This document shows positions 206 through 33,961 of a DNA stretch of 35,026 nucleotides, in pieces; positions within the stretch are counted from its first letter, which is position 1, and every line of letters starts with the position of its first letter. The position numbers and the translations under genes are program-made. The notes beneath the pieces are model-generated. The model was not told the origin of the DNA, ran no database searches, and saw only the letters and a program-made list of their open reading frames with translations. The stretch covers positions 1-35,026 of the IMG/VR virus record IMGVR_UViG_3300042397_002065. One strand, 5' to 3'. Source of the stretch: a virus.

Positions 206-214
206 GTTTTACCC
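206..214 (-). promoter_or_regulatory. GGGTAAAAC element (putative late promoter) before the partial fibre gene
   Basis: The minus strand reads GGCGGGTAAAACTACC. The core ends 38 nt before the ATG at 167 and lies directly downstream of a Rho-independent terminator. A signal placed between a terminator and the next gene is what a promoter would be. It belongs to a family of ten copies in this window. Confidence 0.65.
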
Positions 215-220
215 GCCTAC

Positions 221-246
221 AAAAAGAGGGAGGCCGAAGCCCCCCT
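221..246 (-). terminator. Rho-independent terminator after the 952-aa fibre gene
   Basis: The minus strand reads AGGGGGG, loop CTTCGG, CCTCCCT, then CTTTTTG. The 7-bp stem has one mismatch, a stable UUCG-type loop and a run of five T. It lies about 20 nt after the stop codon of the 952-aa fibre gene and immediately before the next GGGTAAAAC element. Confidence 0.85.
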
Positions 247-265
247 GAAAACGAGTTGTTAAAAC

Positions 266-3124: not shown

Positions 3125-3136
3125 GGTAATAAAGAA

Positions 3137-4120: not shown

Positions 4121-4122
4121 GG

Positions 4123-4593
4123 CTACACAATTACTCCAGAGTCGACGGCAACAATTTGTCCATTTGAATCGATTACTATACCGTTTCCGGCTCGCATGTA
4201 GTTTTGTGTCTCCAAATACGAAATGTAGTCAGACTGAACCCAGGACGAAGTTACAAAGGCAGCAGGGTTGTTTGGAATTTCGTATTGAGCGTAAATGGGA
4301 CCCTCGAACACTCCACCATTTTGGTCGATATTGTCCTCGGGGTACGGCACTACCGATACCCACTGACCTCCGTTCAGGTCTGTGTACCAGATGTTGAGAT
4401 TTGAGTTATTACTATCGTACCAGAGCGAACCTTGAACAGGTTTTGGTGGAGGTGAAACGCTGACGTAGACAGGAGCAGATGTTGGAGAGGAGACTGCCAC
4501 GGCCGTCCATTGGACGCCATTCCATTTCCACGTACGTCCATTAGACGTATATATCTGACCCACCGTTGGATTAGGGGGAAAACTATAGGCCAT
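4123..4593 (-). CDS. Small fibre-associated structural protein
   Basis: 156 residues. It starts 'MAYSFPPNPTVGQIYTSNGRTWKWNGVQW', a motif of the form 'FP.NPTVGQ.YTS.GRTW.WNG..W' seen at the start of many cyanophage fibre and adaptor proteins. A second block, 'PPKPVQGSLWYDSNNSNLNIWY...GQWVSVVPYP', is the 'P.GxLW(W/Y)D...W' element that also appears twice in the 1026-aa baseplate protein. The 'GGVFEGPIYA' segment resembles the fibre 'GG.MTG.I' repeat. A GGGTAAAAC element (4618-4626) ends 24 nt before the ATG, so the gene probably heads the fibre transcription unit. The exact position in the virion is unknown. Confidence 0.7.
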   Translation of the reverse strand: MAYSFPPNPTVGQIYTSNGRTWKWNGVQWTAVAVSSPTSAPVYVSVSPPPKPVQGSLWYDSNNSNLNIWYTDLNGGQWVSVVPYPEDNIDQNGGVFEGPIYAQYEIPNNPAAFVTSSWVQSDYISYLETQNYMRAGNGIVIDSNGQIVAVDSGVIV

Positions 4594-4617
4594 TTAATAG
4601 GCTGCTATTGTAGCTGA

Positions 4618-4626
4618 GTTTTACCC
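4618..4626 (-). promoter_or_regulatory. GGGTAAAAC element before the fibre unit
   Basis: The minus strand reads CTGAGGGTAAAACTC. It overlaps the TGA stop codon of the SwmB/DUF1320-like gene and ends 24 nt before the ATG at 4593. Confidence 0.6.
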
Positions 4627-5709: not shown

Positions 5710-5715
5710 GCTTTG

Positions 5716-6425: not shown

Positions 6426-7228
6426 GACGCACCTCCCAGGTGAGTTGCCTCACCGCCAAACGGGTTGGGACGGGGGTCTGTGCCGTAAGAAGAGTATTTC
6501 TCCATAGGTCCTGCGGTGGTTGGGAAGGTGTAGTCCCAGGTGGCAGCGTTGTTAATAGGCGCCTGCCCGTCTCCACTTCCATCTGGTCTTTCGGTGCTGT
6601 CATTTTGTCCTGCGTGCCCATGGGAAGCATCGATGTGCCTCACCCAGAAGAACGACCCATTCCTCTGAAGACAAACGCACAGCCAGTCAGACTGTAGAGG
6701 TCCGCCAGACTCAACTACCATGCATCCGTGGTTTTCTTGAGTAGCAGGGGGAAGTGAACCACTTGGATAACACGGAAGTCGAGTCATCGAGGAGTTGTTG
6801 GGCATCTCAGGTTTGTCCTTGGCGTTGGTTGCTAAGAGTTCTGGGTCGTGCAGAACATCCTGAAGAATAGCATACTGATACTGCCCGTTCGAAGCATTGA
6901 TATTGACTCGCTTTCCAACAAGACCGGGGGGTTGTTTTCCCTTAAACGCAGGTGAAGTGTCTATCCAGTGCGAGGCGTCGGGCTTCTCGCCCTTGCGCTC
7001 TTCTGACCACTCACCCGCTCCTGTGACTTGAGGAATGCTGGGGTTCATGTCATCGAAAATGACTTTGACTCGACCCCTTTCTTCGGGGTCATTGACGTCT
7101 ACAACGGTTCCTCTGAGGGAACCTTTCGGCAAACCCGCAAACTTGGAGTTTGCCTCACTGGCATTAAGAGCAGCGGCCAAGTCTTTAACAATACCGATAC
7201 TCGTTAAGTTCGGGGGTTTGATGCTCAT
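6422..7228 (-). CDS. Baseplate central spike/hub protein with gp5/gpV-type OB fold
   Basis: 268 residues. Residues about 38-130 have the OB-fold signature of the phage spike family (T4 gp5 N-terminus, P2 gpV, VgrG): 'GTVVDVNDPEERGRVKVIFDD', a WID motif, 'GKRVNI' and a final strand 'YQYAILQDVLHDPE'. These proteins sit at the centre of the baseplate and carry the membrane-piercing tip. No lysozyme domain and no long beta-helix repeat follow. Residues 150-268 ('GCMVVESGG...CVCLQRNGSFFWVRHIDASHGHAGQ', then a Gly/Asn/Pro-rich tail) are not recognised and include paired Cys and several His that might bind a metal. ATGA overlaps link it to both neighbours. Confidence 0.75.
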   Translation of the reverse strand: MSIKPPNLTSIGIVKDLAAALNASEANSKFAGLPKGSLRGTVVDVNDPEERGRVKVIFDDMNPSIPQVTGAGEWSEERKGEKPDASHWIDTSPAFKGKQPPGLVGKRVNINASNGQYQYAILQDVLHDPELLATNAKDKPEMPNNSSMTRLPCYPSGSLPPATQENHGCMVVESGGPLQSDWLCVCLQRNGSFFWVRHIDASHGHAGQNDSTERPDGSGDGQAPINNAATWDYTFPTTAGPMEKYSSYGTDPRPNPFGGEATHLGGAS

Positions 7229-7464
7229 CGTGTGTAACGAAGTGTGTTACGAGGGTGTTTGCTGGTTTCACGAGGAGGAACCGGAGTTGTTGGGCGAACG
7301 TACATTGGTTTGGGTTCCAGTTTTAGTTCGGGAGTTTTTTTAATGAGCGGCTCTTCTTCAAATGGTGTCTTAGTTTCTTCGAGAGCTTCCTGTGGTAGTT
7401 CCACTTTTTCCGTCAGTTTTGTAAGAGGCTCACTAAAAGGCGTTCCTTTGCGTCTTTGTGTCAC
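7225..7464 (-). CDS. Small Pro/Glu/Lys-rich protein of unknown function (79 aa)
   Basis: 79 residues, highly charged and proline-rich ('PLTKLTEKVELPQEALEETK', 'PELKLEPKPMYVRPTTPVPP') and probably disordered. No family is recognised. The start is GTG at 7464, 21 nt after a GGGTAAAAC element; no ATG lies in a sensible place. The stop overlaps the ATG of the spike gene (ATGA). As first gene of a baseplate unit it may be a small assembly or linker protein, but nothing in the sequence shows this. Confidence 0.55.
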   Translation of the reverse strand: MTQRRKGTPFSEPLTKLTEKVELPQEALEETKTPFEEEPLIKKTPELKLEPKPMYVRPTTPVPPRETSKHPRNTLRYTR

Positions 7465-7485: not shown

Positions 7486-7494
7486 GTTTTACCC
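7486..7494 (-). promoter_or_regulatory. GGGTAAAAC element before the spike unit
   Basis: The minus strand reads CCCGGGTAAAACCC. The core contains the TAA stop codon of the 1026-aa gene and ends 21 nt before the GTG start at 7464. Confidence 0.6.
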
Positions 7495-10400
7495 GGGAAG
7501 AAGGTACCCGGTTTTTGGTTGTGTAACAGGATAGCGCCACGCTGCTTCTTGTTGAACATCGAAAAAACCGTCCTCAGCCGCGCTAAGGTCCGCTGAAAAG
7601 TAGGCGTAACATACCTTGTAGTTGTTTGCATCAGCAGTGTAGGTATCCGGGTTGGTATCACAAGTAGGAGGAAACTTGTACACACTTGCGTCCCACACCG
7701 GGGGAGGCAATTCCTCTACTATACCGGTTTCTAAGTCGTTACTTAAGAAACCGGTTACTGTTCGACATGTCTGAGTAGTGAGGTATATTCCTTCCCAATC
7801 TCCAAACCCGGCGCCCACAGGTGACGTCGTATCCGCTTGACGGCAGTGAAGAGGGTCATAGTCAACAAGGTTGCCTTCAGTGAACTCGTCAAATGCAAAC
7901 TCAAACACTGGGAAAACCCCGGAGTTAGTGTACTCACCAACTTGAGTGTAGTTGAAAAATCCAACGTTAGAGTAAAGATATGGTTCCGAGTACACGTATC
8001 GGTCGATATTAACGTCGTCTTCATACAAGAATAGTTCTTCGTACACTTCCGGTTCTTGCAATTCTGGGGGGCACTGCATTAACTCAGCAAGTATACTAGA
8101 TCCCCAATATGCAAAGTCTTGACAAATGAGGTTGGTCTTTTGCCAATTGGTTTCATTGCGCGAGTACTCCGGCGGAAGGCGCAAAAAGAACCGCTGCCAG
8201 TTTTCAGGTCCAGGTCCTGTGTTGGTGTCAGCACGAAGAGGATTAGCAAAAGTATCTAGCTCCAGGTCGCTGAGGTTATCAACAACTTGTAGATCTTTTG
8301 TTTTCCATACCCGCAGTGGAGTCTCACAGTTATAAACATTGGGTGAAAAATAATACTGAATCCCACTAAAAACCAGATCGGAAATGTCTTGAGTGTAAGC
8401 AGTTGTTAAAATATCAGAAATAGTAATGGAAGGCAGACGCAGTTTTCCTTTGGGGCTCAAAGGTGAGTAAGAAAAGTCAAATTGACCCGTTGCAGAATTT
8501 ACTGTATAAATAAACTCATAGTCGCTTGTTGAATACGCGACGCCGCTGTTCAAAAGAACACCGTCGCAGTACACAAAGAGGGTTGAATAGTCTAAAGCGC
8601 CTGGCGGTACGGAACCTTGAGGGTGATAATTAACAGCAATCCAAGAACTCCCCGTGTAAATAGCAGCCGCACGAGTTTGATCGTCTGGATTTGAATAGTC
8701 CCACCACAACTCGCCCTGAAGGGGAGAACCATAAAGTGAAGTGTTGGCAATGTACTTTAGCACTGAATCAGGTTCAATGACCCAACTGGTATTTGTGTAA
8801 AGCTTTAAAAGAACCGCTGTGACATTTTGTGTTATGGAGACGCTCAGGTTTGTAACATCGTAATTGAGCCCATTTGTATAAAATCTGAGAACTTCATTTG
8901 TTCCAGAGGTTGTCAAGTTATTACTTAAGGTGATCGTTATAGCATCAACAGACACCACTGTAGTACCGACCGGCACGTTGACCCCTGAAACAGTCATGCC
9001 CGGGGAGATTTTTCGGTTTTGTGATCTTAAAACAATATTTGGACTACCTGCAGTAGTACTAGCTTTGACCGAAACACTGGGAGAAATGCCAGATCCGTCG
9101 ATTACGGTTACAGGGATTTTGTAAGGCAAAAATAGAGCATCCGCATCAAATGAGTTTTCATCAGGGTACATAAACTCCATCGGCACCCAGTACACCGAGG
9201 TAGCTTGCTTGTACAAGGTTATGGAACCGCTACCGGTCAGAGTTCCTTGAAGTCCGATGATTCCATCTGATACGGAAAGTCCAGAGGAGTCAAGAACCTT
9301 AACAACGGTGTTGCTAAGTACGGTCGGTGCCGCTGCTTGAAAAGCAGCAACATCCGGGAATGTTAAAGGAATAGTTGTAGGGACAACAGGCTGCTCTCTG
9401 TACGTCACTTCCACCCAAGAAGAACAGTCCCCAAGGTAGTCGTACCAAACTGCCAAAGCACCTGTCTCACTGTTCCACCAAAGGTCTCCCTCTTTAGGGG
9501 CCGAGGGAGGCAGTACGCTTACAGAAGCTCTTTCTGCGTACACAAAACTTAAAAGTTGGTTGAAGTCAATACTTCGGTTAACCTCCCCAAGGTATAGGGA
9601 GTCTCTCTCGGAATACCCGTGAACTCCCAGACTGTCAAAGAGAAGGTTGAAAGGAAGTGCCCCTCCTTTGTTGCCCCACGCACCCGTGAAGTTCTTTAAG
9701 ACACTCGGGGTTATCCAGTCCGACGGGTCGTGCCACTGTCTGACGGTGACTTGCTTAACAACGTTCGTTTGAACAGCCGGGTCGGAGTAGTTCCAGACAA
9801 GAAACGCAGTCGGGTCTGTCTGTGTGACACTCAGTGCTTCCGGGACAGTCAAGTACCAAAGTTTCTTGTCCGAGTCGTAGAAGGAAGGCACATCCTCGGA
9901 GAACGTAGTGCTGTACGACAGAAAAACACTTTGGTTGAAGTAGTAAGTTGACCCCGCAATCAGATTGTCAAACTTGTAAGGCAGGGTGAGTCCGGTGTCG
10001 TAAGCAGGGTAGAGTTCCAGTGTGCTGCCGACTGCTTTTACAAGAAAGGAAGTGTCGCCTGCTGTTCCAACTTTAGGTCGGTAGAAAGGCGCTGGACGCG
10101 ACTTTTCCACACTGAGTCGTAGGGGCAAGTTGCTGTTGAGGTTCGAGATGAAGTCCTCAGTTAGCTCACTGAAACCCAGAACGTACCTGCCATCTTCAAG
10201 AGTCAATGACTGTATGATGAAAGAGTCAAGACCGATGAAGACCTCTGAACCTGCTTCAAGGTTCTCAACGGGTTCAATGACGATGGTGTTGTTCCAGTTG
10301 CGTACTTCGTACACGTCAGCAACGATGAACGAGTTGTAGACACCAAAAGTCCCACCGAGGACCTGCCTCTTCTGGTCGACTGTGTCCGGCAAGTTGCCCC

Positions 10401-10569
10401 AGTAGTTGGGTCCGTTCCACCCGAGTGCTTGCGCCACCCAGTTCAACTGCCCTTCTACTCTGCCCTCTACTTCAGTTACTTTGGACTTCTGTTCGGGGGA
10501 CAGGTAAGGGTTGGTGTACTGGCGAAGTTCCCACTGACGGGGGTTGAAAATTGGTCGTTGTGTTGTCAT
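7489..10569 (-). CDS. Large baseplate-region protein, unassigned (1026 aa)
   Basis: 1026 residues, mostly beta-strand. I do not recognise the family as a whole. Two copies of the structural-protein motif 'P.xG(D/E)LWW(N/D)...W(V/I).V' occur, near residues 360-388 ('GDLWWNSETGALAVWYDYLG') and 617-646 ('GELWWDYSNPDDQTRAAAIY'). The same element is in the small fibre-associated protein at 4123-4593. The C-terminal 120 residues contain 'FPPTCDTNPDTYTADANNYK' and end 'YPVTQPKTGYLLPG'. The gene begins 1 nt after the stop of the 434-aa gene, which itself overlaps the J-like wedge gene, so the three are co-translated. A wedge or peripheral baseplate protein (functionally like T4 gp7, gp10 or gp12) is plausible from context only. 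Confidence 0.65.
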   Translation of the reverse strand: MTTQRPIFNPRQWELRQYTNPYLSPEQKSKVTEVEGRVEGQLNWVAQALGWNGPNYWGNLPDTVDQKRQVLGGTFGVYNSFIVADVYEVRNWNNTIVIEPVENLEAGSEVFIGLDSFIIQSLTLEDGRYVLGFSELTEDFISNLNSNLPLRLSVEKSRPAPFYRPKVGTAGDTSFLVKAVGSTLELYPAYDTGLTLPYKFDNLIAGSTYYFNQSVFLSYSTTFSEDVPSFYDSDKKLWYLTVPEALSVTQTDPTAFLVWNYSDPAVQTNVVKQVTVRQWHDPSDWITPSVLKNFTGAWGNKGGALPFNLLFDSLGVHGYSERDSLYLGEVNRSIDFNQLLSFVYAERASVSVLPPSAPKEGDLWWNSETGALAVWYDYLGDCSSWVEVTYREQPVVPTTIPLTFPDVAAFQAAAPTVLSNTVVKVLDSSGLSVSDGIIGLQGTLTGSGSITLYKQATSVYWVPMEFMYPDENSFDADALFLPYKIPVTVIDGSGISPSVSVKASTTAGSPNIVLRSQNRKISPGMTVSGVNVPVGTTVVSVDAITITLSNNLTTSGTNEVLRFYTNGLNYDVTNLSVSITQNVTAVLLKLYTNTSWVIEPDSVLKYIANTSLYGSPLQGELWWDYSNPDDQTRAAAIYTGSSWIAVNYHPQGSVPPGALDYSTLFVYCDGVLLNSGVAYSTSDYEFIYTVNSATGQFDFSYSPLSPKGKLRLPSITISDILTTAYTQDISDLVFSGIQYYFSPNVYNCETPLRVWKTKDLQVVDNLSDLELDTFANPLRADTNTGPGPENWQRFFLRLPPEYSRNETNWQKTNLICQDFAYWGSSILAELMQCPPELQEPEVYEELFLYEDDVNIDRYVYSEPYLYSNVGFFNYTQVGEYTNSGVFPVFEFAFDEFTEGNLVDYDPLHCRQADTTSPVGAGFGDWEGIYLTTQTCRTVTGFLSNDLETGIVEELPPPVWDASVYKFPPTCDTNPDTYTADANNYKVCYAYFSADLSAAEDGFFDVQQEAAWRYPVTQPKTGYLLPG

Positions 10570-14707: not shown

Positions 14708-15265
14708 TCAGGAAGGACAAATAACGTCCGACCCACCGGGGGCGGCATAGTTATTACAAGTGGGATTAGCAGCAGAATAGTAAATACCGTTGTCGATTTC
14801 TAAAGTCTCTAAGAGTTCTTCTATTTGATCTGCAACAATTTGCTTAGTAACAAGGTCTGACGGGTCTAAAGCAGAGAATTTCTGCGGAATTGTAGGTGTA
14901 GGGATATAGTTGGCGTTCTCGTATTTGTCGTTAGTAGTGTAGCTCTTAGGGCTAGTCCTAAAGTCGTTTGGAGGATTGGACGGAACCGATGAGTCATATC
15001 CGAATTCCCACGCACCAACCACAACCTTAGAACCCGAAATTGGGTAACCGCCGACGTACTGACCCGTGGAGTCTAAAGTTGGTTGAGAAGTTCCAAGAGT
15101 AATAAACTCGGTGTCCAGGCCATTGGGGCCAGAAATGATGAGGGAGTTTACGCCAAGGGGCTGATAGTGCCAGTCTAAATCTTGACCGTCAAAGTATATT
15201 TGCTGCGCCCCGTTTAACCACTGTGAAGTGACGATGACTCCAGAACTAAACGTCGTCTTTGCCAT
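14708..15265 (-). CDS. Small tail/baseplate structural protein (185 aa)
   Basis: 185 residues. The N-terminus 'TFSSGVIVTSQWLNGAQQIYFDG' matches the pattern '(T/F)..G.VVTS.WLN..Q...F' found at the start of several phage fibre and baseplate proteins. The middle has short beta-strands and the C-terminus a helix ('DLVTKQIVADQIEELLETLE') followed by a small Cys-containing tail ('NPTCNNYAAPGGSDVICPS'). No enzyme signature is present. It is the first gene after a strong terminator and a GGGTAAAAC element (30 nt before the ATG), so it heads the baseplate unit. A virion component attached to the baseplate is likely; its specific role is not known. Confidence 0.65.
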   Translation of the reverse strand: MAKTTFSSGVIVTSQWLNGAQQIYFDGQDLDWHYQPLGVNSLIISGPNGLDTEFITLGTSQPTLDSTGQYVGGYPISGSKVVVGAWEFGYDSSVPSNPPNDFRTSPKSYTTNDKYENANYIPTPTIPQKFSALDPSDLVTKQIVADQIEELLETLEIDNGIYYSAANPTCNNYAAPGGSDVICPS

Positions 15266-15295: not shown

Positions 15296-15304
15296 GTTTT
15301 ACCC
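15296..15304 (-). promoter_or_regulatory. GGGTAAAAC element directly after a terminator
   Basis: The minus strand reads TCTAGGGTAAAACC. It lies 7 nt past the T-run of the terminator at 15312-15338 and 30 nt before the ATG at 15265. Termination followed at once by this element is the best local evidence that the element starts transcription. Confidence 0.7.
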
Positions 15305-16979: not shown

Positions 16980-17468
16980 TCAGGCAAACGTTACAAGAAC
17001 GAGCTTACGACCGCCAATGTTAATGGCTTCACGAATCAGAGGGGTGGTACCATCGATTGTGACAGCGTTACCGGCGGCAACGGCCTGACCCAGCAGGTTG
17101 ACCTGCAGAGGGGTGTTCAGGGTGATGGCAGCAGAGGCGGGAGCAACTTCGATCAACAGCAGACCGCTGGTAGCCACAGTCAGCTGACGAGCGGTGTAAG
17201 GCTGAGCCAGAGCGGTAGGCATGTAAGCCTGGTTCACACCAGCGATGGTGGTGGGGACAGCTGCGAAAGCGTTAGGGGCAGCGGCAACGTTAGGACCGGC
17301 AGAAACCAGGTAGCTAACAACACACAGCTCACCTACTTCAACTACGCCGATGTTTGTACCAGCGGCAGTAGCCAGGGGTGAACCAGCTTCAGCGTCAACA
17401 GCGGCTTCCCAGGTTTCCGCGTAGCGGATGTACTGTTTGCCGTAAATAGGGGCAGCATTAGTAGCCAT
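16980..17468 (-). CDS. Putative head decoration (capsid cement) protein
   Basis: 162 residues, very rich in Ala, Val and Thr, with no charged helices. Short beta-strands ('NIGVVEVGELCVVSYLVSAG', 'TARQLTVATSGLLLIEVAPA', 'AVTIDGTTPLIREAINIGGRKLVLVTFA') suggest a beta-barrel. In Mu-like and many other phages a small beta-protein gene (DUF2190-type cement or gpD-type decoration) lies directly before the coat gene, as here. The residue pattern near the C-terminus ('LLGQAVAAGNAVTIDG..TPLI') is compatible with such a protein but is not decisive. AAGGA lies 8 nt before the ATG. The 75-nt leader carries an inverted repeat and starts at a GGGTAAAAT element, fitting a highly expressed gene. A minor coat or tail protein is the alternative. 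Confidence 0.6.
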   Translation of the reverse strand: MATNAAPIYGKQYIRYAETWEAAVDAEAGSPLATAAGTNIGVVEVGELCVVSYLVSAGPNVAAAPNAFAAVPTTIAGVNQAYMPTALAQPYTARQLTVATSGLLLIEVAPASAAITLNTPLQVNLLGQAVAAGNAVTIDGTTPLIREAINIGGRKLVLVTFA

Positions 17469-17543: not shown

Positions 17544-17552
17544 ATTTTACCC
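17544..17552 (-). promoter_or_regulatory. GGGTAAAAT element before the decoration/capsid unit
   Basis: The minus strand reads TGACGGGTAAAATC, with one change (final T) from the consensus. It lies 75 nt before the ATG at 17468, farther than most copies. Confidence 0.5.
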
Positions 17553-20695: not shown

Positions 20696-20704
20696 GTTTT
20701 ACCC
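20696..20704 (-). promoter_or_regulatory. GGGTAAAAC element before the protease-scaffold gene
   Basis: The minus strand reads GAAGGGTAAAACC. The core contains the portal gene's TAA stop and ends 26 nt before the GTG start at 20669. Confidence 0.6.
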
Positions 20705-22216
20705 TTCTTTGAGGGCTTCATCAGTAGCCTCATCCTCGGTAACTTCTTCATCACCAAAGGGCCTCTGCTGGTCGTCGGGAACGCCATCACCATCAAGGTC
20801 GGGTGCTTCTCCCAACCCCACCTCTTCGCCAGTGTCGAGGTCCTCGACTGGTTGTTGCTCGTCGTTGCCAGGAACACCTTCCTCGCCCAGTGCCGTGTCG
20901 TCAGCACCGAAGATGGAGTTATAAAGGTCCATGTCAGACTCTGGATCATACATAGTGCGCGCCTCAGTCTCGCCTTCTTTGTTGGTTTCGAAGTCGGTGG
21001 CGTCCTGCAGTTCCACACGGAAGTGGCGCTCAATCCACTCTTTTTTAGGTGTGTAGCCCGACTGAATGAGCAGTGAGACGTCAGGCATCGTCAGAGGTGA
21101 CTCTTCAATGCGGAACTCACGGGTGAGTGTCGGTGCGGCAACGTCGGTACCGAAGTTGAGGTCAACGATCCAGCGAATGAGCGACTGAGACAATGCCTGA
21201 GACACCATCTCAGAGAGTTCGGCTGCTTTAACGACTCGCACGACGTTCGCCACTTGAGACGATGCCCGTGACCCCGCCTCTGCCTGCCCTGCCTCATTCT
21301 CCCCGCAAATCAGAACGCTTATTTCTTTGTCAACGTAGTCAATCAAGTTCTTGAACACGTCCGGCGAACCTGTGGGCGACACGAAACTGAGTTCGTATCC
21401 TTCAGGCAGTACCATGGCGGTCTCCTGACTTAGGTTAGAAAGGTGGTCGTACAGAGTGTCGAGTTCAGCAGTCGAGGCACTCAGGGGCGCCATGGCAACT
21501 GCAGTTGGTGTTGCGTACCGGTCGCCGTAGAGAACGTACGACTCAATCGCACGGCGGCGGAACTTAACCAGCGGGTACAGAATGCGACCCATTGCTGAGC
21601 CGTAGGGGTCGCCGTTGTGACTGACGTAGTATCGGTTGACAATGAACTTTCGCTTAGGGATTTCAACACCTTCGAACATGCGGTTGAAAGTCAAGCAGCG
21701 AAGAACGAAACCTCCAGGGGCATTCTCGTCCTCTTGGAACACGAAGCGACGTTGATCGCGCATCCGAATATCAAACGGAATTACACCTCGCTTGGTCTTC
21801 TTCCACATTACTTCGCCGACTGAAAAACCTGTAATCAGGCACTCAGACATGCCCTTGTAAATATCATCAAGGGGCATTTCCTCTAAAACTTCTGCTACAA
21901 AGTCGCGAACTGCAAGATCTCCAGGTTTGGAAGAATATTCTTCCACGTACCAAGGCCGTGAGGTTACTTCTTGAAGCAGTTTGCTAAAACATGCTTGAAC
22001 TTGCTCGTCATACAAAAGACGCTGATAAACAACAAGTGCCCTGTTACCGCCCTTGTTGATTAGTAGATCATCATTAGGCCGCACGATTGTGTTGCCGCTA
22101 CCTGTAAAGGGAGAGCTACTCCCAAACATGTAGATTGATGATAAATTATATGGATCGCTGGTATAACGAGCAACCTCACCAGACGGCACAGGAGCAGTTT
22201 TAAATCTCTGAGCCAT
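20699..22216 (-). CDS. Portal protein, Mu gp29 / DUF935-like
   Basis: 505 residues from the ATG at 22216, which has AAGAGG 6 nt upstream; longer frames starting at 22300 would overlap the previous gene and are unlikely. Signature segments of the DUF935 portal family are clear: 'YQRLLYDEQVQACFSKLLQEVTSRPWYVE', 'GFSVGEVMWKKT', 'RRFVFQED', 'YGSAMGRILYPLVKFRRRAIE', 'YGDRYATPTAVA', and near the C-terminal third 'ISVLICGENEAGQAEAGSRAS' with 'LSEMVSQALSQSLIRWIVDLNFG'. The last 80 residues are an acidic tail ('DLDTGEEVGLGEAPDLDGDG'). The dodecameric portal sits at the head vertex and admits DNA. A GGGTAAAAC element ends 34 nt before the start. Confidence 0.88.
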   Translation of the reverse strand: MAQRFKTAPVPSGEVARYTSDPYNLSSIYMFGSSSPFTGSGNTIVRPNDDLLINKGGNRALVVYQRLLYDEQVQACFSKLLQEVTSRPWYVEEYSSKPGDLAVRDFVAEVLEEMPLDDIYKGMSECLITGFSVGEVMWKKTKRGVIPFDIRMRDQRRFVFQEDENAPGGFVLRCLTFNRMFEGVEIPKRKFIVNRYYVSHNGDPYGSAMGRILYPLVKFRRRAIESYVLYGDRYATPTAVAMAPLSASTAELDTLYDHLSNLSQETAMVLPEGYELSFVSPTGSPDVFKNLIDYVDKEISVLICGENEAGQAEAGSRASSQVANVVRVVKAAELSEMVSQALSQSLIRWIVDLNFGTDVAAPTLTREFRIEESPLTMPDVSLLIQSGYTPKKEWIERHFRVELQDATDFETNKEGETEARTMYDPESDMDLYNSIFGADDTALGEEGVPGNDEQQPVEDLDTGEEVGLGEAPDLDGDGVPDDQQRPFGDEEVTEDEATDEALKEG

Positions 22217-22250: not shown

Positions 22251-22259
22251 GTTTTACCC
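22251..22259 (-). promoter_or_regulatory. GGGTAAAAC element before the portal gene
   Basis: The minus strand reads AACTGAGGGTAAAACTAC. It overlaps the TGA stop of the gp25-like gene and ends 34 nt before the portal ATG. Confidence 0.65.
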
Positions 22260-22935: not shown

Positions 22936-25900
22936 TCATCCGTTATTCTGACCCAGTCCTTGTGAGTTCAGTTCGTTCTGCATGTTGCCGATTGCCACAC
23001 GAATGAGGTCAATCTGGATGCGCTCGAGTGTCGGAACGGGGGTCACGAACACCTTGGCGTTCACGATGCCGTTCTCGAGGTTGTCGGGAGTGTTGATGCG
23101 ACCGTCGCAGATAACCTGGAAGGCATCAGACGGGCGAGCACCAAACAGAGCACCCTTGACATACAGTTGGTTCAGAACACTGTTACCCACGCTCACGATT
23201 TGGTTGAACACCACGCCGAAACCGTCGATCACGTTGAAGATCTGACTGTCGAAGGCGTTACGCAGTGAACCGTAAACAACGTTCATGATGACACGAGTGT
23301 TCACGAACTGGTACAGACGCTGTTGAGCGTCGGCAGCGTTCACGCGAGTGCGACCACCCCAGATGAACACGGCTGTCTGGGGGTAACCAGGCAGAGTGCG
23401 CACGGCGTTGCAACCGTCGGGGTTGAGCAGGTTCTGCTGAGCAGAGTTGATGGGAATCTGAACACCCACCGCATCAGCCAGCTGGTACTTGACGCCAGCA
23501 GGCGGGAACTGGTAACCTTCAGCACGGTAGCGACGAACAGCCACACCGGTCACGTAAGGAGTCGGAGGGATGTACTGGCCGCTAGCGTTCAGAATGTAGG
23601 AACCGTAGTAGGCGATGAAACCGAAGGGGTTGAAGTAACGCTGACTGTCCTCATAGAGGCGGTTAACGTTGTCCACACCGGCTTCGATAAACTCAGCCTG
23701 AGGAACACCATTGAAACCAACGCCACGCAGTGCCTGGTCGATGATCTCAGTAGAAGTAACAGCGTCGAAGCGCCACAGTGCCACAGGAGGTGTCTGTTGA
23801 GTGGTGTAGGTGAGAGTCACCTGTGAACCGTACAGAGGCAGACTGTAAGCAGTCAGGTCCTCACCAGCATTAACCACAACCCAGCTGTAAACACCGTTGT
23901 CGTTGTAGACCACAATGGTGTCGCCAACAACCACGGGAGTAGTGCTGTCAGGTGCGTTACCAGCAACGGTAACATTCAGGTAAACACCGTTAAGAGGTGC
24001 CAGAGCAGCTTGTGAAGTTGGTGCAAGACCAACAGCCAGGCCAGACTGGGCAACGTAACCGGGGTTAACTGTCAGAACGCCAAGAGTGGCACCGTCATAA
24101 GTTCCGCCTGGGAAAGGACCCTGAGCGGGAACCAGGTAGGACTCAGTCTGGAACTCTTGCTCGACCGTGGGAACACAGAAGAAGTTCTGAGCACCAGCGT
24201 TAGTTGCGTTGATAGAAGCAACAGCAACGCTCCAAGCAGTATTGGTTGTAGCACCGCCGTCCCAGTCACACTGGGCGTAGGCTTGCAGAGGACCGACAGG
24301 ACCATTGGACTGAACACGGCTAATAACCGTTAAAGCACCAACAGTAAACTGAGTGTCAACTGAAGTGTACGTTCCATTGACAGAGGCAGGAAGCTGATAG
24401 GAAGCATTCGCCTTGGACCCGGCGTTAAACAGGGTTGAACCTGAATAAGACTTTACAAGCGTCGAAACTGCAGAAGGCAGCGTCGGTGAAGCAACAATAG
24501 CATTGAGTGTTGCGGCGGTGAACCTTACGGTGCGTCCGACAACCCAGTTAGCACTGTAGCTTCCTACAACGGCCTGAGTGTTACCAGCCAGGTTATAACC
24601 GGCGGCATTCAGAGCAGCTTCGGTAACCAGTGCGGGAGTCGCTTGAGTTGTGCCACTGATGGTAGCAGTCAGCGAGTCAGTGATGGTCCACTGAACGGTT
24701 ACCAGGTCACCAGCGGCAACCGGGAAGTCAGTTCCAAGGATGACACCCTGAAGGTCGGTAGTTCCGGCCTGAAGCACACCGTCAACGTACCAGTCCCAAG
24801 TCATTGTGGAACCAGTGGCCAGTGCGTTCTCAACCCAAGTAGGAGGCAGGAACATGACGGCTTCGCCCTCGACGTTCCAGAAGCCTTGTGAGCCAGGGAG
24901 AAGTCCAGTAGAAAGGTCGATAGCAGTCGCTTTGCCGTCAGCGTCACGAGTAACAAACTGAGGGGCGATAGACGAAATAGAACCGTTGTTGCTGTAGAGC
25001 TTGGCCAGAGCAACGTTGCTCAGAGCAGGCTCGAGCAGTTCAAGCTCAGGCAGCCAACCAGCATCGACAGTTTCACCGGCAGGAGCAACGGTGCCTTCAC
25101 CCAGGACGCTTGCGCTCTTTGAGAGGAAGATAGACAGGTCAGGGTTGTTGACGTCAGCGACAGGTGCGGAAGCGGCACTAGAAGCTTGGTCGTAAATGCT
25201 GCTGCTATTGAAACCGTACTTCCGGCCGCGCATGAGCGGGAAAGTAGTAGCTTCAGTTGTGCTACCAGACACGGCCCCTTCCAGACTGGCCATCACCGTT
25301 GAGTAGGCGATGGAAGGCGTTGCAGTAGCAACGGGATCAGCCACAGGGATTTTAACGTAAGAACCAGCAGCAAAGTTAGTGGTACTTGCAGCAAGGAAGA
25401 AGTTGTTACCGTCAACAACTTTAACGTAGTAGGGGTTCAGAGCCTGTTTGGAAGAAGCTTTGAACAGGAAGTAACCAGAGGCAGTCAGGATGGCAGTTGT
25501 GAAGAAGATCTTCATGCCATCTACAAGACCGTGCTGAACACAGTTGATGTTAGCAACTTGAGCGAAAGCAGGGTTGGTGCTTGCCAGGATGCTAGCCGAA
25601 GGGTCCAGGATTGTCCGGTTGAACATTCCCAGAGTAAAGGTGCTGGTGGGATCCTGCAGAGTTCCGGGGAAGTGCTGCGTGTTGATACCGTGAGCATTGT
25701 TCCGAATGTTTTGGAACAGGTTCGAGGTCTGACCGTTGATGGTAACAGACTGGTCGTAAGCAGGGGCAGCGTAGCTAATAGTAGCCGACTGAACGCCTGA
25801 GGTTGACTGAGCAATGTTCAGAGCACCCGGAGGAAGCGCAGCTCCAACCTTTGAAGTGCCACCTTGGGCAACAACGTAGTTGAACACGGACACGGCAGCC

Positions 25901-27384
25901 GAAGAAGTGGAAGCCAGGTACACCACGTTCATGGGGTAGTCGCTGGTCAGTTCGGTGTCGTAAGGAGGAGCAACAACGTACACATTGCCCTGGAGGGCAT
26001 TGAACGGGTTGTTGGACCCAGCAGCACCTGACAGAACAACCTCTTGAATCTGCAGATCCACGGGCCAGTAGGCGTTGGAGTCAATAGTGACTTTGCCGTA
26101 CGAAGCAGCGGACAGAGGGGCGTAAATAGTGTAAACGCCACGGTCCAGTGCGCCAACCTTCACATCGGGAGGGATGTTGGAGTTGGTGGACTCTTGAACA
26201 GCTACTTTTGGTGCAGCACCGCCAATCAGGTCTTGATAGTCAAGACGTGAGTAGGTAACAGAATCACCAGTCCACTCGTAGATGGCGTTGTCAACCAGAT
26301 ACTTCACACCCTGAATCAGGTCAGCAGCGGCCTGATGGGGGACGTAGTTATCGTACTTATTAAGGTCGGTAACAAGGAAGGGGCCGGGGTCAGCCAGGGC
26401 CATCCACTTGAAGTTATTGCTTTCGCAATGAGCAGCAGCTTTGGCGCCCACAGCGGAACGACCAGCAGCGTCAAACTGAGCATATGCGGTAGGAGTAATC
26501 AAGTATCCCTGATCTTGCTGACCGTCAAATGCTGTTTCGATGCACTGGATGTAGTCTTGAGGAACGCGAGTGGCGTCAGCTTGCAGACCGTTGATGTTTG
26601 CCACATCGTATGTGTTCTGAGCAAACGCGAATGTGCCAGACACAGGTTGGGTCTTGGTGACCACAGTTACGGGCGAGTCGAAGGTTGCACCTGCGATCGA
26701 CACGTAAGAGTTTTGTGAGTTGGAAGTGGGGTCAACGTCAACCACCAGACCGAAGTCGCGAACATACACCGAAGTGCGAATGCTGGGGTTGCTCTCGATT
26801 GCCTCGGCAACTGCAGTCGCAATGGCGGCAGAGATCTTACGGTTGTTGGCTTCGTCACCAGCTACGTAGTTCACGGGGATGATAACAGGAACACCCAGCC
26901 ACTCGCCGCTGGCCGTGTAACCGGTTGAACCGTCGCCGGCCACCAAACGGTTGCCATTGAGAATGACTTGAACGTACACCTTGTCGCCAGCCATCAGTGA
27001 AGAAGGCAGGGCAGAGGAGCTGCTCTTTGCACCGGAGGGGAAGAACTCCATCTCCACGATGCTGTTAGGAGTACCCACGCGAACCACGCGAAGGTCACCA
27101 ACCTGAGCGTTCTGGAAGAACTCGTTGACGCAGTTGTAGCTCAGAAGGGGAATGCGGTCAGTAGGAACAGAGCCGCCAACCAGAACCCGGTAGTCAGCAA
27201 GGCTGGTTACGGGAATAGGTGTGTTAAAGGGAAAAACGGTAACAGGAGCAGAGTCAGGCGCCTCAACCAGCATGTACACGGTCGAGAAAGAGGCAACTGC
27301 TGCCGAAGCAATATTACCGGCCCGTTCCTCGATGTACACGCCGGGCGCGCCGGGTGTGTTACCACTCATTGAAAATGTAGCCAT
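22936..27384 (-). CDS. Contractile tail sheath protein, unusually long (1482 aa)
   Basis: 1482 residues from ATG 27384. This start matches the family N-terminus 'MATFSMSGNTPGAPGVYIEERA'; the upstream ATG at 27417 adds 11 atypical residues. The C-terminal 240 residues are typical sheath core: 'RYFNPFGFIAYYGSYILN', 'RYRAEGYQFPPAGVKYQLAD', 'LNPDGCNAVRTLPGYPQTAVFIWGGRT', 'RLYQFVNTRVIMNVVYGSLR', 'FQVICDGRINTPDNLENGIV' and 'VFVTPVPTLERIQIDLIRVA'. These carry the handshake strands that link subunits. Residues about 100-550 include another conserved part ('GYLITPTAYAQFD...RSAVGAKAAAHCE'). About 600 residues in between are extra beta-rich, Ala/Ser/Thr/Val-rich domains absent from shorter sheaths (T4 gp18 659 aa, Mu gpL 495 aa), likely displayed on the outer tail surface. 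Contraction drives DNA delivery. Confidence 0.9.
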   Translation of the reverse strand: MATFSMSGNTPGAPGVYIEERAGNIASAAVASFSTVYMLVEAPDSAPVTVFPFNTPIPVTSLADYRVLVGGSVPTDRIPLLSYNCVNEFFQNAQVGDLRVVRVGTPNSIVEMEFFPSGAKSSSSALPSSLMAGDKVYVQVILNGNRLVAGDGSTGYTASGEWLGVPVIIPVNYVAGDEANNRKISAAIATAVAEAIESNPSIRTSVYVRDFGLVVDVDPTSNSQNSYVSIAGATFDSPVTVVTKTQPVSGTFAFAQNTYDVANINGLQADATRVPQDYIQCIETAFDGQQDQGYLITPTAYAQFDAAGRSAVGAKAAAHCESNNFKWMALADPGPFLVTDLNKYDNYVPHQAAADLIQGVKYLVDNAIYEWTGDSVTYSRLDYQDLIGGAAPKVAVQESTNSNIPPDVKVGALDRGVYTIYAPLSAASYGKVTIDSNAYWPVDLQIQEVVLSGAAGSNNPFNALQGNVYVVAPPYDTELTSDYPMNVVYLASTSSAAVSVFNYVVAQGGTSKVGAALPPGALNIAQSTSGVQSATISYAAPAYDQSVTINGQTSNLFQNIRNNAHGINTQHFPGTLQDPTSTFTLGMFNRTILDPSASILASTNPAFAQVANINCVQHGLVDGMKIFFTTAILTASGYFLFKASSKQALNPYYVKVVDGNNFFLAASTTNFAAGSYVKIPVADPVATATPSIAYSTVMASLEGAVSGSTTEATTFPLMRGRKYGFNSSSIYDQASSAASAPVADVNNPDLSIFLSKSASVLGEGTVAPAGETVDAGWLPELELLEPALSNVALAKLYSNNGSISSIAPQFVTRDADGKATAIDLSTGLLPGSQGFWNVEGEAVMFLPPTWVENALATGSTMTWDWYVDGVLQAGTTDLQGVILGTDFPVAAGDLVTVQWTITDSLTATISGTTQATPALVTEAALNAAGYNLAGNTQAVVGSYSANWVVGRTVRFTAATLNAIVASPTLPSAVSTLVKSYSGSTLFNAGSKANASYQLPASVNGTYTSVDTQFTVGALTVISRVQSNGPVGPLQAYAQCDWDGGATTNTAWSVAVASINATNAGAQNFFCVPTVEQEFQTESYLVPAQGPFPGGTYDGATLGVLTVNPGYVAQSGLAVGLAPTSQAALAPLNGVYLNVTVAGNAPDSTTPVVVGDTIVVYNDNGVYSWVVVNAGEDLTAYSLPLYGSQVTLTYTTQQTPPVALWRFDAVTSTEIIDQALRGVGFNGVPQAEFIEAGVDNVNRLYEDSQRYFNPFGFIAYYGSYILNASGQYIPPTPYVTGVAVRRYRAEGYQFPPAGVKYQLADAVGVQIPINSAQQNLLNPDGCNAVRTLPGYPQTAVFIWGGRTRVNAADAQQRLYQFVNTRVIMNVVYGSLRNAFDSQIFNVIDGFGVVFNQIVSVGNSVLNQLYVKGALFGARPSDAFQVICDGRINTPDNLENGIVNAKVFVTPVPTLERIQIDLIRVAIGNMQNELNSQGLGQNNG

Positions 27385-27462
27385 GTTGAACTCAGTATAC
27401 CCTCTTTTCAGGTACATCTAGCGGCCGGGCTGAGTCCGCATAGGTCACCGAAGTGGATGTAC

Positions 27463-28119
27463 TTATTCCACTTTTACCCTCAGTGATGTGTCTATCCCCA
27501 TACTTTTCTGATATACAGATAGCGGTCCTGCGGTACTGACTTTACCTGTTTTTAGACACCTCCACTTCTGAGCATTTAGCTGAGAGTTGGGTCGCCCCCG
27601 TTCCCATCCTTCACCCGGGCATTCGGATGCCTTTACGTCATTAGTTCCGTTTGTCCACCATACTTCGGCTAGTCCGGGAGTCCAGCCTTCCCCGGGGCAT
27701 TTTTTGCTTCTTTTGTTATCCTTTCCGTTATTCCAGTACGGGAGCGACCCCACTTCTTTCATTAGCTCCCTACCTTTTTCCCATCCTTCACCGGGGCTTG
27801 TCCATGACCTGACATCTTCCCCATTTTTTGTCCACCATGGGCATTTACCTCCTATTTCTCCACCTTCACGACCATACTTTATTCCAGCTTCAGTTGCTTG
27901 TTGTATAAAATATCCCCCATTATGCCATCCATGAGAGTGCATACTGGGGGAACATACGTACAGATGTTCAGGTACATTCCTCCCTCCCTCGCTTACTGCG
28001 GGGTGATGGTGCACATGCATCCCTTTCATTTCCTCGTCAGTCAGTCCCCAGTGCGCCTGGGCGACTTTTCGATGGTTTTTTATGTGCGGCGACAGCACTA
28101 TAGAAACAGTTTTTTCCAT
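27463..28119 (-). CDS. HNH homing-type endonuclease with W-x-NG/PGEGW repeats
   Basis: 218 residues from ATG 28119 (an upstream ATG at 28143 adds 8). Residues 12-70 carry the HNH core: 'HRKVAQAHWGLTDEEMKGMH', then 'VHHHPAVSEGGRNVPEHLYV', then 'CSPSMHSHGWHN', with the H-H pair, central Asn and final His expected for metal binding and strand cleavage. Residues 90-190 contain three repeats of the form 'W(W/N).NG......PGEGW..GR', found in phage HNH proteins and probably binding DNA. No intron is evident: the gene is free-standing between the LysM-like and sheath genes, a typical home for a homing endonuclease. No good ribosome site is seen. The last codons (S-L-R-V-K-V-E) are encoded by the CTGAGGGTAAAAG element of the sheath gene. 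Confidence 0.8.
   Translation of the reverse strand: MEKTVSIVLSPHIKNHRKVAQAHWGLTDEEMKGMHVHHHPAVSEGGRNVPEHLYVCSPSMHSHGWHNGGYFIQQATEAGIKYGREGGEIGGKCPWWTKNGEDVRSWTSPGEGWEKGRELMKEVGSLPYWNNGKDNKRSKKCPGEGWTPGLAEVWWTNGTNDVKASECPGEGWERGRPNSQLNAQKWRCLKTGKVSTAGPLSVYQKSMGIDTSLRVKVE
27471..27479 (-). promoter_or_regulatory. GGGTAAAAG element inside the HNH gene end, upstream of sheath
   Basis: The minus strand reads CTGAGGGTAAAAGTGG, with one change at the last base. It lies in the last codons of the HNH gene, 86 nt before the sheath ATG. A second partial copy (GAGGGTATAC, about 27397-27406) lies 12 nt before the sheath ATG. Confidence 0.5.
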
Positions 28120-28896: not shown

Positions 28897-28898
28897 GA

Positions 28899-29306: not shown

Positions 29307-29737
29307 TTCTTTCTCCGTGCCGCTTTCTTAGCCTCATCCGCTTGTTTTTCATGAAAGTCATTGGTAACTGATATCATGGTCAGAACTTTGCTTATAGGCT
29401 GACTTTCCATCCAGTCAATGGAACTGTCCCACCGCTCTTTGCAGAGGTGAAATGCTGTCTTTAACCAGTTTTCAACTGTGAACAACCGCTCCTCCAAAAG
29501 GTTTTCGGTGACCCACTTGACAACTGTGCTGAACTTCCTGGCGGGTATTTGATCCAGACACTCTTCAGGAGACAATAAGAGCCTAATAACTAATTCCATG
29601 AAGGAGCGTTTTTGCTGACGAAGTATCTGACCTAGATAGAAGTCTTTTGGAGTTATTTCCCTGAAGTGGAGTACAAGCCCATCGCCCCACTCCACCAGGT
29701 AAGAAAAATCTTCTAGGTCAGTAATAGTCAGTTTGGG
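29303..29737 (-). CDS. Tail assembly chaperone, downstream (frameshift) part
   Basis: The frame is open from the slippery site at 29731-29737 to the stop at 29303. A free-standing start (GTG 29695, 130 aa) is possible but has no good ribosome site. After a -1 shift the downstream part is 142 codons, beginning 'LTITDLEDFSYLVEWGDGLV' and continuing with a helical, charged domain ('FYLGQILRQQKRSFMELVIRLLLSPEE') and a basic end (KQADEAKKAARRKK). In phages with long tails the second chaperone product is made only as a frameshift fusion and binds the tape measure and tail tube proteins while the tail is built. Domain identity is inferred from position and the slippery site rather than from sequence motifs. 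Confidence 0.7.
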   Translation of the reverse strand, partial: PKLTITDLEDFSYLVEWGDGLVLHFREITPKDFYLGQILRQQKRSFMELVIRLLLSPEECLDQIPARKFSTVVKWVTENLLEERLFTVENWLKTAFHLCKERWDSSIDWMESQPISKVLTMISVTNDFHEKQADEAKKAARRKK

Positions 29738-30060
29738 TCTTCGTCGTCTCCGTTTGCTTTGCTAACGAGATCACTGAGTTTGCGGAAGTCTTTGACGCCG
29801 AGGTCCAGGATCTCTTCGTAAGTGATTTTGTCATCACCAACGATTAGTCGCTCAATGATTCGCAGACCCTTCTCGATGTCACCTGCCTTGGAGAGTTCTT
29901 TCTCCATATAAATCAGGTCACGACCGGTCATTTCTCGAATGGTGATCTCGCGACCGTCGGAGATGGCGGTGGAGAACGTCTCGAGTTTGGGGAAGGGTGC
30001 CGGAGTGGACTTTTTGGTTACGGCAGCGGTTTGAACCGTATCTTCTGACAGAGTTCGCAT
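29728..30060 (-). CDS. Tail assembly chaperone, upstream (short) product
   Basis: 110 residues. The segment 'ISDGREITIREMTGRDLIYM', followed by 'EKELSKAGDIEKGLRIIERL' and 'IVGDDKITYEEILDLGVKDFRKLSDLV', follows the pattern of phage tail assembly chaperones of the gpE/gp41 (TAC) type: a 'dG..i.iREmtg.D' start, then paired helices and 'l...Df..l...v'. The gene ends at 'GDDEDPN' with the slippery heptamer CCCAAAC directly before the TGA. A small fraction of ribosomes should shift to -1 and produce a 252-residue fusion with the downstream frame. A GGGTAAAAC element ends 26 nt before the ATG. Such chaperones coat the tape measure during tail assembly and are absent from the mature virion. Confidence 0.78.
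   Translation of the reverse strand: MRTLSEDTVQTAAVTKKSTPAPFPKLETFSTAISDGREITIREMTGRDLIYMEKELSKAGDIEKGLRIIERLIVGDDKITYEEILDLGVKDFRKLSDLVSKANGDDEDPN
29731..29737 (-). other. Programmed -1 ribosomal frameshift site (C CCA AAC)
   Basis: In the reading frame of the short chaperone the codons are GAC CCA AAC TGA. The heptamer C-CCA-AAC fits the X-XXY-YYZ rule and re-pairs as CCC-AAA after a -1 shift. The new frame avoids the adjacent TGA and stays open for 142 codons. GGAG lies 10 nt upstream, the spacing of the internal Shine-Dalgarno stimulator of bacterial -1 shifts such as dnaX. No strong downstream stem-loop was seen. Confidence 0.85.
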
Positions 30061-30063
30061 AGT

Positions 30064-30291
30064 TTAGTTAGGATGTTGCTGATTGAGTTTTACCCTCAGA
30101 GCGAAAAGGCGGGCTTCAGTTTCCATCAGCCCCTCACCAGGGGGTAGTTTGAGATAAATGGCGTTTGCTATTCGCCAGCTAACTTCGGCGTCTTCAATAT
30201 TTCCAGGCACAAGGCGGTCTTCAACATCATCCAGCCAAAAAGAAACGATTTCTCGCCTAAACTCTGGGTTCTGAGGAAGTGGAAAAGGCAT
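30064..30291 (-). CDS. Unknown small protein (75 aa)
   Basis: 75 residues: 'MPFPLPQNPEFRREIVSFWL', then an acidic loop (DDVEDRLVPGNIEDAE) and a helix ('SWRIANAIYLKLPPGEGLMETEARLFALRVKL'). No family recognised. Its ATG overlaps the stop of the preceding gene (TAATG). The codons for L-R-V-K-L near the end are formed by the CTGAGGGTAAAACTC element, so the promoter-like sequence is also coding. The gene lies between the DNA polymerase and tail chaperone genes; whether it belongs to replication or tail assembly is not clear. Confidence 0.6.
   Translation of the reverse strand: MPFPLPQNPEFRREIVSFWLDDVEDRLVPGNIEDAEVSWRIANAIYLKLPPGEGLMETEARLFALRVKLNQQHPN
30087..30095 (-). promoter_or_regulatory. GGGTAAAAC element before the tail chaperone unit
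   Basis: The minus strand reads CTGAGGGTAAAACTC. It lies within the last codons of the 75-aa gene and ends 26 nt before the chaperone ATG at 30060. Confidence 0.6.
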
Positions 30292-30473
30292 TATAATGCT
30301 TTTGATAATACGAGAGCGCCTTCAGGAGTGTAATACTCCGAGTTAAAAGCGCAGTTCACAGATGAAAGAATTTCTTTTCCTCGCTTATCATAAGGTATCA
30401 CTAGGAAGTACACATCATTAGCTCCACGAAAAGGAATGATAGAAGCGGAATCGACTCGTGATTTTCTTGACAT
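30291..30473 (-). CDS. Unknown small protein (60 aa)
   Basis: 60 residues: a basic start (MSRKSRVDSAS), a beta-hairpin-like middle ('DVYFLVIPYDKRGKEILSSV') and 'CAFNSEYYTPEGALVLSKAL'. No family recognised. The ATG overlaps the DNA polymerase stop (TGATG), so the gene is translated with the polymerase and may be an early gene product. It is too short to judge from sequence alone; the tight coupling on both sides is the main reason to accept it as real. Confidence 0.55.
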   Translation of the reverse strand: MSRKSRVDSASIIPFRGANDVYFLVIPYDKRGKEILSSVNCAFNSEYYTPEGALVLSKAL

Positions 30474-33250: not shown

Positions 33251-33256
33251 GTTAGT

Positions 33257-33262
33257 ATTATA
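33257..33262 (-). promoter_or_regulatory. TATAAT -10-like box before the DNA polymerase gene
   Basis: A perfect TATAAT on the minus strand ends 6 nt before the polymerase ATG. The -35 position (GGTTTA at 17-nt spacing) is poor. If used, transcription would start at or near the ATG, giving a nearly leaderless mRNA, which would fit the absence of a Shine-Dalgarno sequence. Confidence 0.35.
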
Positions 33263-33266
33263 GGGT

Positions 33267-33285
33267 GGTTTCCCCGAGGTAAACC
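33267..33285 (-). other. Stem-loop between structural gene and DNA polymerase
   Basis: GGTTT and AAACC pair, with an inner CC/GG pair, directly after the stop codon of the 213-aa structural gene. No T-run follows on the minus strand, so it is a weak terminator at best. It may reduce read-through into the polymerase gene or stabilise the upstream mRNA. Confidence 0.4.
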
Positions 33286-33927
33286 CTACAGGGTGTCGAT
33301 GGGCGGAGCAGTCAGGTTGTCGCTGACGGGGTACATAAAGCTGTACTGGATAGCCCGCTGATTGGCAGTTGGGGGAACGAATGCAGCCACTTGATTTTGG
33401 TAGAAGCGGCGAGGCACCTGAGCCCATCGGGGATTCCCCCCGGCAACTGCGGGGGTAGACGTTACAGCGGAAACCGTAATGCTCCAACCTGTTCCGTCGG
33501 GAATGTCACCTGTCAAAACATTCCCCACAGCGTAGTTGCTGCCGGGGGCAATTAAAGTGAAGCTGGTCACAACGCCTGTACCATCAACAATGGCTCGACC
33601 GTAGGCACCACTACCGACACCGCCAGTCAAGGGGATGTTGTATATACCGGGGAGATATCCGGACCCCGCTACCAACGTACCGGTCGTGCTGATAATGCCA
33701 GACACAGCAGCCTGACTGGGCACGAAAGAATGAACGACATAGTCGAACATTGTGGGATTGCCAGGATCAACTCCGTAGCCGTTGGGCTGAAGCTGAGTAT
33801 AGTACTGCATGGAGTTGTTTTGCCATGAGCGGTAAGTGGGGGCCAGCACATTCCCGTACTTTGCTAAGTCAGCAGAACTCAGAAGAGACTTTACAAGTTT
33901 TGACATTTGGACGGCACGAGGGTTCAT
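33286..33927 (-). CDS. Virion structural protein with a 'GSGY..G.Y' beta-repeat
   Basis: 213 residues from ATG 33927, which has GAAGGAAG upstream; the frame's first ATG (33942) lacks one. Residues about 85-145 ('AGSGYLPGIYNIPLTGGVGS', 'GAYGRAIVDGTGVVTSFTLI', 'APGSNYAVGNVLTGDI') form a Gly-rich beta-repeat widespread in cyanophage structural proteins, typically 'GSGYTPGTY..VPLTGG.GSGA.A...V...G.VT.......G..Y..GD.L'. The flanks are unrecognised: an N-terminal 'LLSSADLAKYGNVLAPTYRSW' and a C-terminal 'RRFYQNQVAAFVPPTANQRA'. A GGGTAAAAC element ends 25 nt before the start, which marks it as a late gene. A decoration or fibre-type surface role is plausible. Confidence 0.7.
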   Translation of the reverse strand: MNPRAVQMSKLVKSLLSSADLAKYGNVLAPTYRSWQNNSMQYYTQLQPNGYGVDPGNPTMFDYVVHSFVPSQAAVSGIISTTGTLVAGSGYLPGIYNIPLTGGVGSGAYGRAIVDGTGVVTSFTLIAPGSNYAVGNVLTGDIPDGTGWSITVSAVTSTPAVAGGNPRWAQVPRRFYQNQVAAFVPPTANQRAIQYSFMYPVSDNLTAPPIDTL

Positions 33928-33952
33928 GCTCACTTCCTTCACACGTAAACTG

Positions 33953-33961
33953 GTTTTACCC
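33953..33961 (-). promoter_or_regulatory. GGGTAAAAC element before the 213-aa structural gene
   Basis: The minus strand reads GACTGAGGGGGTAAAACC. It follows the TGA stop of the 114-aa gene and ends 25 nt before the ATG at 33927, with the Shine-Dalgarno sequence between them. Confidence 0.65.

Follow-up and report, generated by a model that had tools for sequence, protein, structure and literature searches.

A strand-biased single-box element as a candidate late promoter of phages related to Synechococcus phage S-CBWM1

The window, meaning the whole stretch of DNA analyzed here, is a 35,026-base virus record in which every called gene lies on the minus strand. Its gene junctions carry ten copies of the eight-base word GGGTAAAA, eight of which extend to the nine-base form GGGTAAAAC; the two exceptions end in T (17544) and G (27471). 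The copies, and one associated hairpin, are arranged as follows.

33953..33961, minus strand: box GGGTAAAAC, 25 nt before gene 33286-33927
30087..30095, minus strand: box GGGTAAAAC, 26 nt before the gp79 homologue 29728-30060; S-CBWM1 orthologous site 47492
27471..27479, minus strand: box GGGTAAAAG, 53 nt before the tail sheath gene 22936-27417; S-CBWM1 orthologous site 121938
22251..22259, minus strand: box GGGTAAAAC, 34 nt before the portal gene 20699-22216; S-CBWM1 orthologous site 127025
20696..20704, minus strand: box GGGTAAAAC, 26 nt before the head maturation protease gene 18216-20669; the portal gene (end 20699) has its stop codon in the TAA of this box; S-CBWM1 orthologous site 128436
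17544..17552, minus strand: box GGGTAAAAT, 75 nt before the gp172 homologue 16980-17468, a gene located ahead of capsid; S-CBWM1 orthologous site 130696
15296..15304, minus strand: box GGGTAAAAC, 30 nt before the gp177 homologue 14708-15265, immediately behind a T-run hairpin that can be seen in the sequence; S-CBWM1 orthologous site 135703
7486..7494, minus strand: box GGGTAAAAC, 21 nt before gene 7225-7464, its TAA being the stop codon of the fibre-like gene 7489-10569
4618..4626, minus strand: box GGGTAAAAC, 24 nt before the ATG of gene 4123-4593, directly after the stop codon of a head-tail adaptor gene
227..246, minus strand: terminator-like hairpin of 8 pairs, then CTTTTTG, immediately upstream of box 206
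206..214, minus strand: box GGGTAAAAC, 38 nt before an ATG near position 167, which opens a baseplate-wedge-like gene truncated at the end of the window

The original prediction had named these ten copies and their strand, and all ten were recovered at their positions on the minus strand, here the coding strand, with zero exact GGGTAAAA on the plus strand. Its count of eight exact nine-base copies holds as well, as does its placement of eight copies 21-38 nt before a start codon, at the distances listed; the remaining two, at 27471 and 17544, lie farther out. It overstated the longer form said to be present in half of the copies: CTGAGGGTAAAA occurs at only four of the ten sites (three with the final C), and this extension consists in part of TGA stop codons abutting the motif. 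On the minus strand GGGTAAAA is the commonest 8-mer, observed 10 times with 0.57 expected from an order-3 Markov model (maximum 4 in 300 runs), and GGGTAAAAC is the commonest 9-mer, observed 8 times with 0.17 expected (maximum 3 in 300 runs). The hairpin at 227-246 stands out, though a terminator scan of the window was overall near the level of shuffled sequence. Promoters of new transcription units often follow hairpins of this kind, as the boxes at 206 and 15296 do. Because all called genes are on the minus strand, strand bias and gene orientation cannot be separated inside the window, and the bias proves little alone; relatives were therefore needed as a test.

A megablast search of phage records with the first 25 kb of the window returned no match, so relatives were sought by protein. 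The window capsid protein shares ~66-67% identity with its counterpart in Synechococcus phage S-CBWM1 (Aokuangvirus, 139 kb), the nearest isolate, and 37-40% with the capsids of S-TIM5-like phages. Further identities with S-CBWM1 are 61% for the portal, 52% for the sheath and 57% for the DNA polymerase, and the portal, protease, sheath, baseplate, neck and DNA polymerase genes keep the same local order in both. By its syntenic virion genes and strand-biased GGGTAAAA, the window belongs to the S-CBWM1-like (Aokuangvirus-like) lineage, an assignment that stops above genus level. Six of the ten window sites occupy orthologous S-CBWM1 junctions (before gp79, sheath, portal, protease, gp172 and gp177). 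The lineage is common in environmental viromes and little studied: more than 300 IMG/VR stretches encode a relative of the window capsid protein, and the literature searched yielded no description of transcription control in these phages. In literature searches on the motif strings, the matches listed were all unrelated; the S-CBWM1 and S-TIM5 genome papers may mention these motifs.

In S-CBWM1, GGGTAAAA occurs 33 times on the forward strand and once on the reverse, and no other 8-mer of the forward strand is equally over-represented. For 23 of the 33 sites an annotated start follows 10-60 nt downstream (6.3% expected from background; p ~1e-20). At nine sites the gene upstream ends on the motif's own TAA, as also happens in the window at 20699 and 7489, an arrangement that would let promoter and gene end share bases. 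Among 80 related loci with overlapping gene content, GGGTAAAA is again the commonest 8-mer, with 221 copies on the capsid strand and 0 on the opposite one. The strand split is 275:4 in 25 whole records found by their capsid gene (backwards-motif controls total 22) and 211:8 in 15 records found by the gene for sigma2, a phage sigma factor described below (controls total 45). Contigs with only distant sigma relatives (L133-L136) hold 0-1 copies. The check proposed with the original prediction, a motif search with strand and distance to start, is thus passed in S-CBWM1 and in both the capsid-found and sigma-found records, and the scatter inside genes that would count against a promoter was not seen. 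The motif is a signature of the whole S-CBWM1-like phage lineage.

Two records each carry one opposite-strand copy. The copy in G003 lies 31 nt ahead of a gene on its own strand, where just two genes are called, and the syntenic copy in G001 stands ahead of the same open frames, including a fatty-acid desaturase (PF00487). Differences between the two records at codon positions 1/2/3 number 36/27/98, and this concentration at position 3 indicates that the opposite-strand frame is real. Motif orientation tracks gene orientation. The divergent module (G001 58001-59900, G003 33300-35130) comprises a gene of unknown role and the desaturase, and its own box faces that of the main operon. A Chi- or KOPS-like polar word acting in replication, recombination or packaging would also produce a strong strand bias in genomes with nearly all genes on one strand, but we regard such a function as extremely improbable, since the motif flips with this rare module, keeps a constant spacing to start codons and does not occur in whole blocks of genes.

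Alignment of 121 sites from six genomes confines the information to position -1, the eight-base core, C or T at the next two positions, and A-rich offsets 14-15. At position -1, A or C is preferred and T avoided (3/121), the sole upstream preference worth noting. The junction before gp172 and the capsid gene retains the exact core in 48 of 66 related loci; the other 18 have no exact core within 1 kb before the capsid gene, and four of these carry a one-base variant in the same place. At the orthologous pre-capsid sites the base at offset 14 from the first base of the motif is A in 48 of 48, and this A is the likely transcription start. With offset 14 as +1, the nine-base box would span about -14 to -6, transcription would begin at an A five bases past it, and typical distances from box to start codon would leave a 5' leader of roughly 17-25 nt. 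No -35 partner was detected by position information, k-mers or known boxes: upstream of the sites, TAGGC, the Group 3 -32/-35 box, occurs 2 times versus 1.0 expected, and TTGACA, the upstream half of a sigma-70 TTGACA/TATAAT pair at 16-18 nt, occurs once versus 1.5 expected. A sigma-70 promoter scan of the window was likewise not far above shuffles. The original prediction had called the element unlike both TATAAATA and sigma-70 boxes, which is true in sequence. The core is GGGTAAAA(C/T), and it almost certainly acts as a single-box promoter. The fixed distance to start codons could also suit an RNA-level element of the 5' leader, such as a translation enhancer or a processing or stability site. 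That explanation is hardly credible, however, given sites that precede tRNA genes, sit directly behind terminator-like hairpins or overlap upstream stop codons, a spacing too distant for Shine-Dalgarno, and an invariant A at the expected start position.

The genes served by the box point to its timing. Of the 22 structural genes named in S-CBWM1, 9 carry a site no more than 100 nt away, versus 0 of 16 nucleotide-metabolism genes (Fisher p 0.005) and 0 of 37 genes in the putative early block at 26.7-47.3 kb (structural genes versus both motif-free classes together, 5e-6). The largest site-free gap in this genome is significant by gene count (p 4e-4) and not by length (p 0.17). In the 190-kb G027, every one of the 21 sites is located past base 101,376, within or after the half that holds the virion genes. 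The window capsid and baseplate J genes have no box directly upstream, and structural genes of this kind would need read-through. From gene content we infer that the box very probably belongs to the late class, serving virion and other late genes in S-CBWM1-like (Aokuangvirus-like) phages. The original prediction of a late promoter is thereby supported by strand, start distance, conservation and gene-class bias, its lateness coming from gene content. A promoter not specifically late, read by host sigma-70 machinery ahead of any well-expressed gene, would be in keeping with the resemblance of TAAAAT to a -10 hexamer and with the genes that some S-CBWM1 sites precede: tRNA genes (closely, at two sites), a homing endonuclease gene and others whose role is unknown. 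It is nevertheless quite improbable, as the box has neither a -35 element nor a TG extension, is absent from the two motif-free classes above, and gives way to a different sequence in early-type blocks.

That other sequence is a second promoter-like class, GGGCGGTAAACCGCCCTTTAC in S-CBWM1 or GGGCGGTTTACCCCCTTT in G029, followed after ~16 nt by TATAGT, TATACT or TAAGCT; the two-box form GGGCGGTTTACCCCCTTT, ~16 nt, TATAGT is found in a 33-kb motif-free block of G029. In both genomes it closely precedes genes of motif-free blocks and the gene for sigma1, a second phage sigma factor. Examples in S-CBWM1 (L081-L083) are at 8917, 11181, 27355, 28420, 38767, 40208 and 101576, and those in G029 (L173-L178, read reversed) are at 32771 and 65918-96085. 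In S-CBWM1 the -35 position holds a perfect inverted repeat, GGGCGG-TAAA-CCGCCC. The class is absent from the window.

S-CBWM1 and its longer relatives encode the two sigma factors, sigma1 (gp142) and sigma2 (gp152; S-CBWM1 numbering); neither gene lies in the window. Sigma2 has a region 2, and its best profile matches are SigB/SigF/SigG and SigF models (TIGR02980, 2.8e-14; NF005644, 3.2e-12), which places it at family-level similarity to SigB/SigF/SigG, with both scores below the curated cut-offs for full members. By sequence, its best credible match among solved structures is chain 8x6g_H, named by a fold search as the SigB open complex of S. aureus; the formally top structure was a repeat protein matched through a short helix and was set aside. 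Sigma2 also has region-3-like helices, and its C-terminal domain is predicted as a compact helical unit (pLDDT 83) within a modest full-length model (pLDDT 67). This domain has no convincing sequence match to region 4 and no significant fold match; a 4.1-like remnant may persist, and alternative helical folds of the domain could still bind DNA. A sigma2 lacking a recognizable region 4 would explain the missing -35 box. Two contigs as large as jumbo phages, G026 (277 kb) and a 279-kb contig (L170), likewise carry the sigma2 gene; the strand split in G026 is 30:6, a weaker bias than most, and G026 may have genes on both strands.

We infer that sigma2 is probably the reader of the box, redirecting the host RNA polymerase core to it, and the evidence favours sigma2 over sigma1. 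All motif-bearing genomes belong to one lineage and carry both factors, so co-occurrence cannot tell one from the other. The same late promoter could instead be read by sigma1, which stands beside sigma2 throughout the lineage, or by a host group 3 sigma such as SigF, which in cyanobacteria recognizes GGTAA at -12 (PMC2758279). Either reader is unlikely. Sigma1 keeps region 4 (a weak Pfam match and a weak match to RpoS region 4), with which a -35 box would be expected; its own gene lies behind the different, two-box promoter-like sequence; and S-TIM5, with one detectable sigma, which is SigF-like, still uses a single box. Host SigF also needs TAGGC at -32, the word found at near-background frequency upstream of the sites. 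With sigma2 as the best candidate, the phage-coded or modified polymerase factor proposed originally would be a phage sigma, and a new polymerase type is not needed. Taken as a whole, a late single-box promoter of S-CBWM1-like phages read via sigma2 is the likely model.

Group 3 promoters offer one point of comparison. The -10 element of B. subtilis SigB begins GGGTAT and that of cyanobacterial SigF contains GGTAA (PMC2758279), and GGGTAAAA contains both GGTAA and GGGTA; sigma2 itself falls in the SigB/SigF family. The phage box differs from the SigF (TAGGC...GGTAA) and SigB (GGGTAT) promoters in having no -32/-35 element and in extending to GGGTAAAAY. Among phages, SPO1-type sigmas of Bacillus phages (for example Grass and phiAGATE) are also phage-coded, and some show distant similarity to sigma2, at 27-29% identity. 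The middle and late promoters of SPO1 have two boxes. In the Microcystis phage Ma-LMM01, which resembles the present phages as a cyanophage whose late transcription is not T4-type, late genes have host SigA-like two-box promoters and no gp55 homologue is present (PMC5780444).

The closer parallel is with T4, whose late promoter TATAAATA is a single box with no -35, read by gp55 with gp33 and gp45 (PMC2988020). Here too an eight- or nine-base box in the -10 region, with no -35, stands before virion genes, and its likely reader is a phage-coded sigma-70-family protein without a -35-reading domain (PMC2988020 for T4). By its predicted register and single-box form the element would be functionally of T4 late type. 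It is not filed in the T4 late family, however, because the box is GGGTAAAAY, not TATAAATA (0-1 occurrences in sigma2 loci), and sigma2 profiles as SigB/SigF/SigG-type; sigma2 is moreover longer than its T4 counterpart and carries region-3-like helices and a C-terminal helical domain in one chain.

S-TIM5 (Aurunvirus) has a box of its own. GGGTAAAA fails there, with a strand split of 8:4 and no bias. GTTTAAAG has 36 copies, and for 24 of these a start on the same strand is no more than 70 nt away. The copies mainly precede structural genes and occupy three divergent junctions. The divergent pairs (L084-L087) are:

49544 (minus strand) and 49562 (plus strand): GTTTAAAG pair
57048 (minus strand) and 57054 (plus strand): GTTTAAAG pair
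122790 (minus strand) and 122802 (plus strand): GTTTAAAG pair

From this distribution GTTTAAAG is probably the late promoter of S-TIM5. The only sigma-70 region 2 match in this phage is the SigF-like factor, ~23% identical to sigma2. S-TIM5 thus shares with the S-CBWM1 lineage a single box, orientation with the gene, placement before structural genes and a related SigF-like sigma, whereas the bases of the box differ (GTTTAAAG versus GGGTAAAA). A broader and more tentative reading is that these phages possess a late system parallel to that of T4, in which a one-chain sigma derived from SigB/SigF lost its -35-reading region 4, kept a C-terminal helical domain and came to read a new single-box promoter, the box having diverged with the sigma between sister lineages as GGGTAAAAY (S-CBWM1-like) and GTTTAAAG (S-TIM5). 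A one-chain late sigma had not yet been found in nature according to a T4 review (PMC2988020), and sigma2, if this possibility is correct, would approximate it.

A clear late promoter would allow late operons to be read directly from metagenome contigs, with the box as a diagnostic for the lineage. The matched sigma-promoter pairs of S-CBWM1-like and S-TIM5-like phages bear on how promoter and sigma change together, and the box offers a case for how a single-box promoter works outside T4. S-CBWM1 additionally contains a repeated intergenic element, TCCTGAGG...GATGTGAAAGATT...ACTGTCCCA, at 26561, 26650, 65874, 96379, 96468, 126628 and 135673; four copies of it end just before a GGGTAAAA box.
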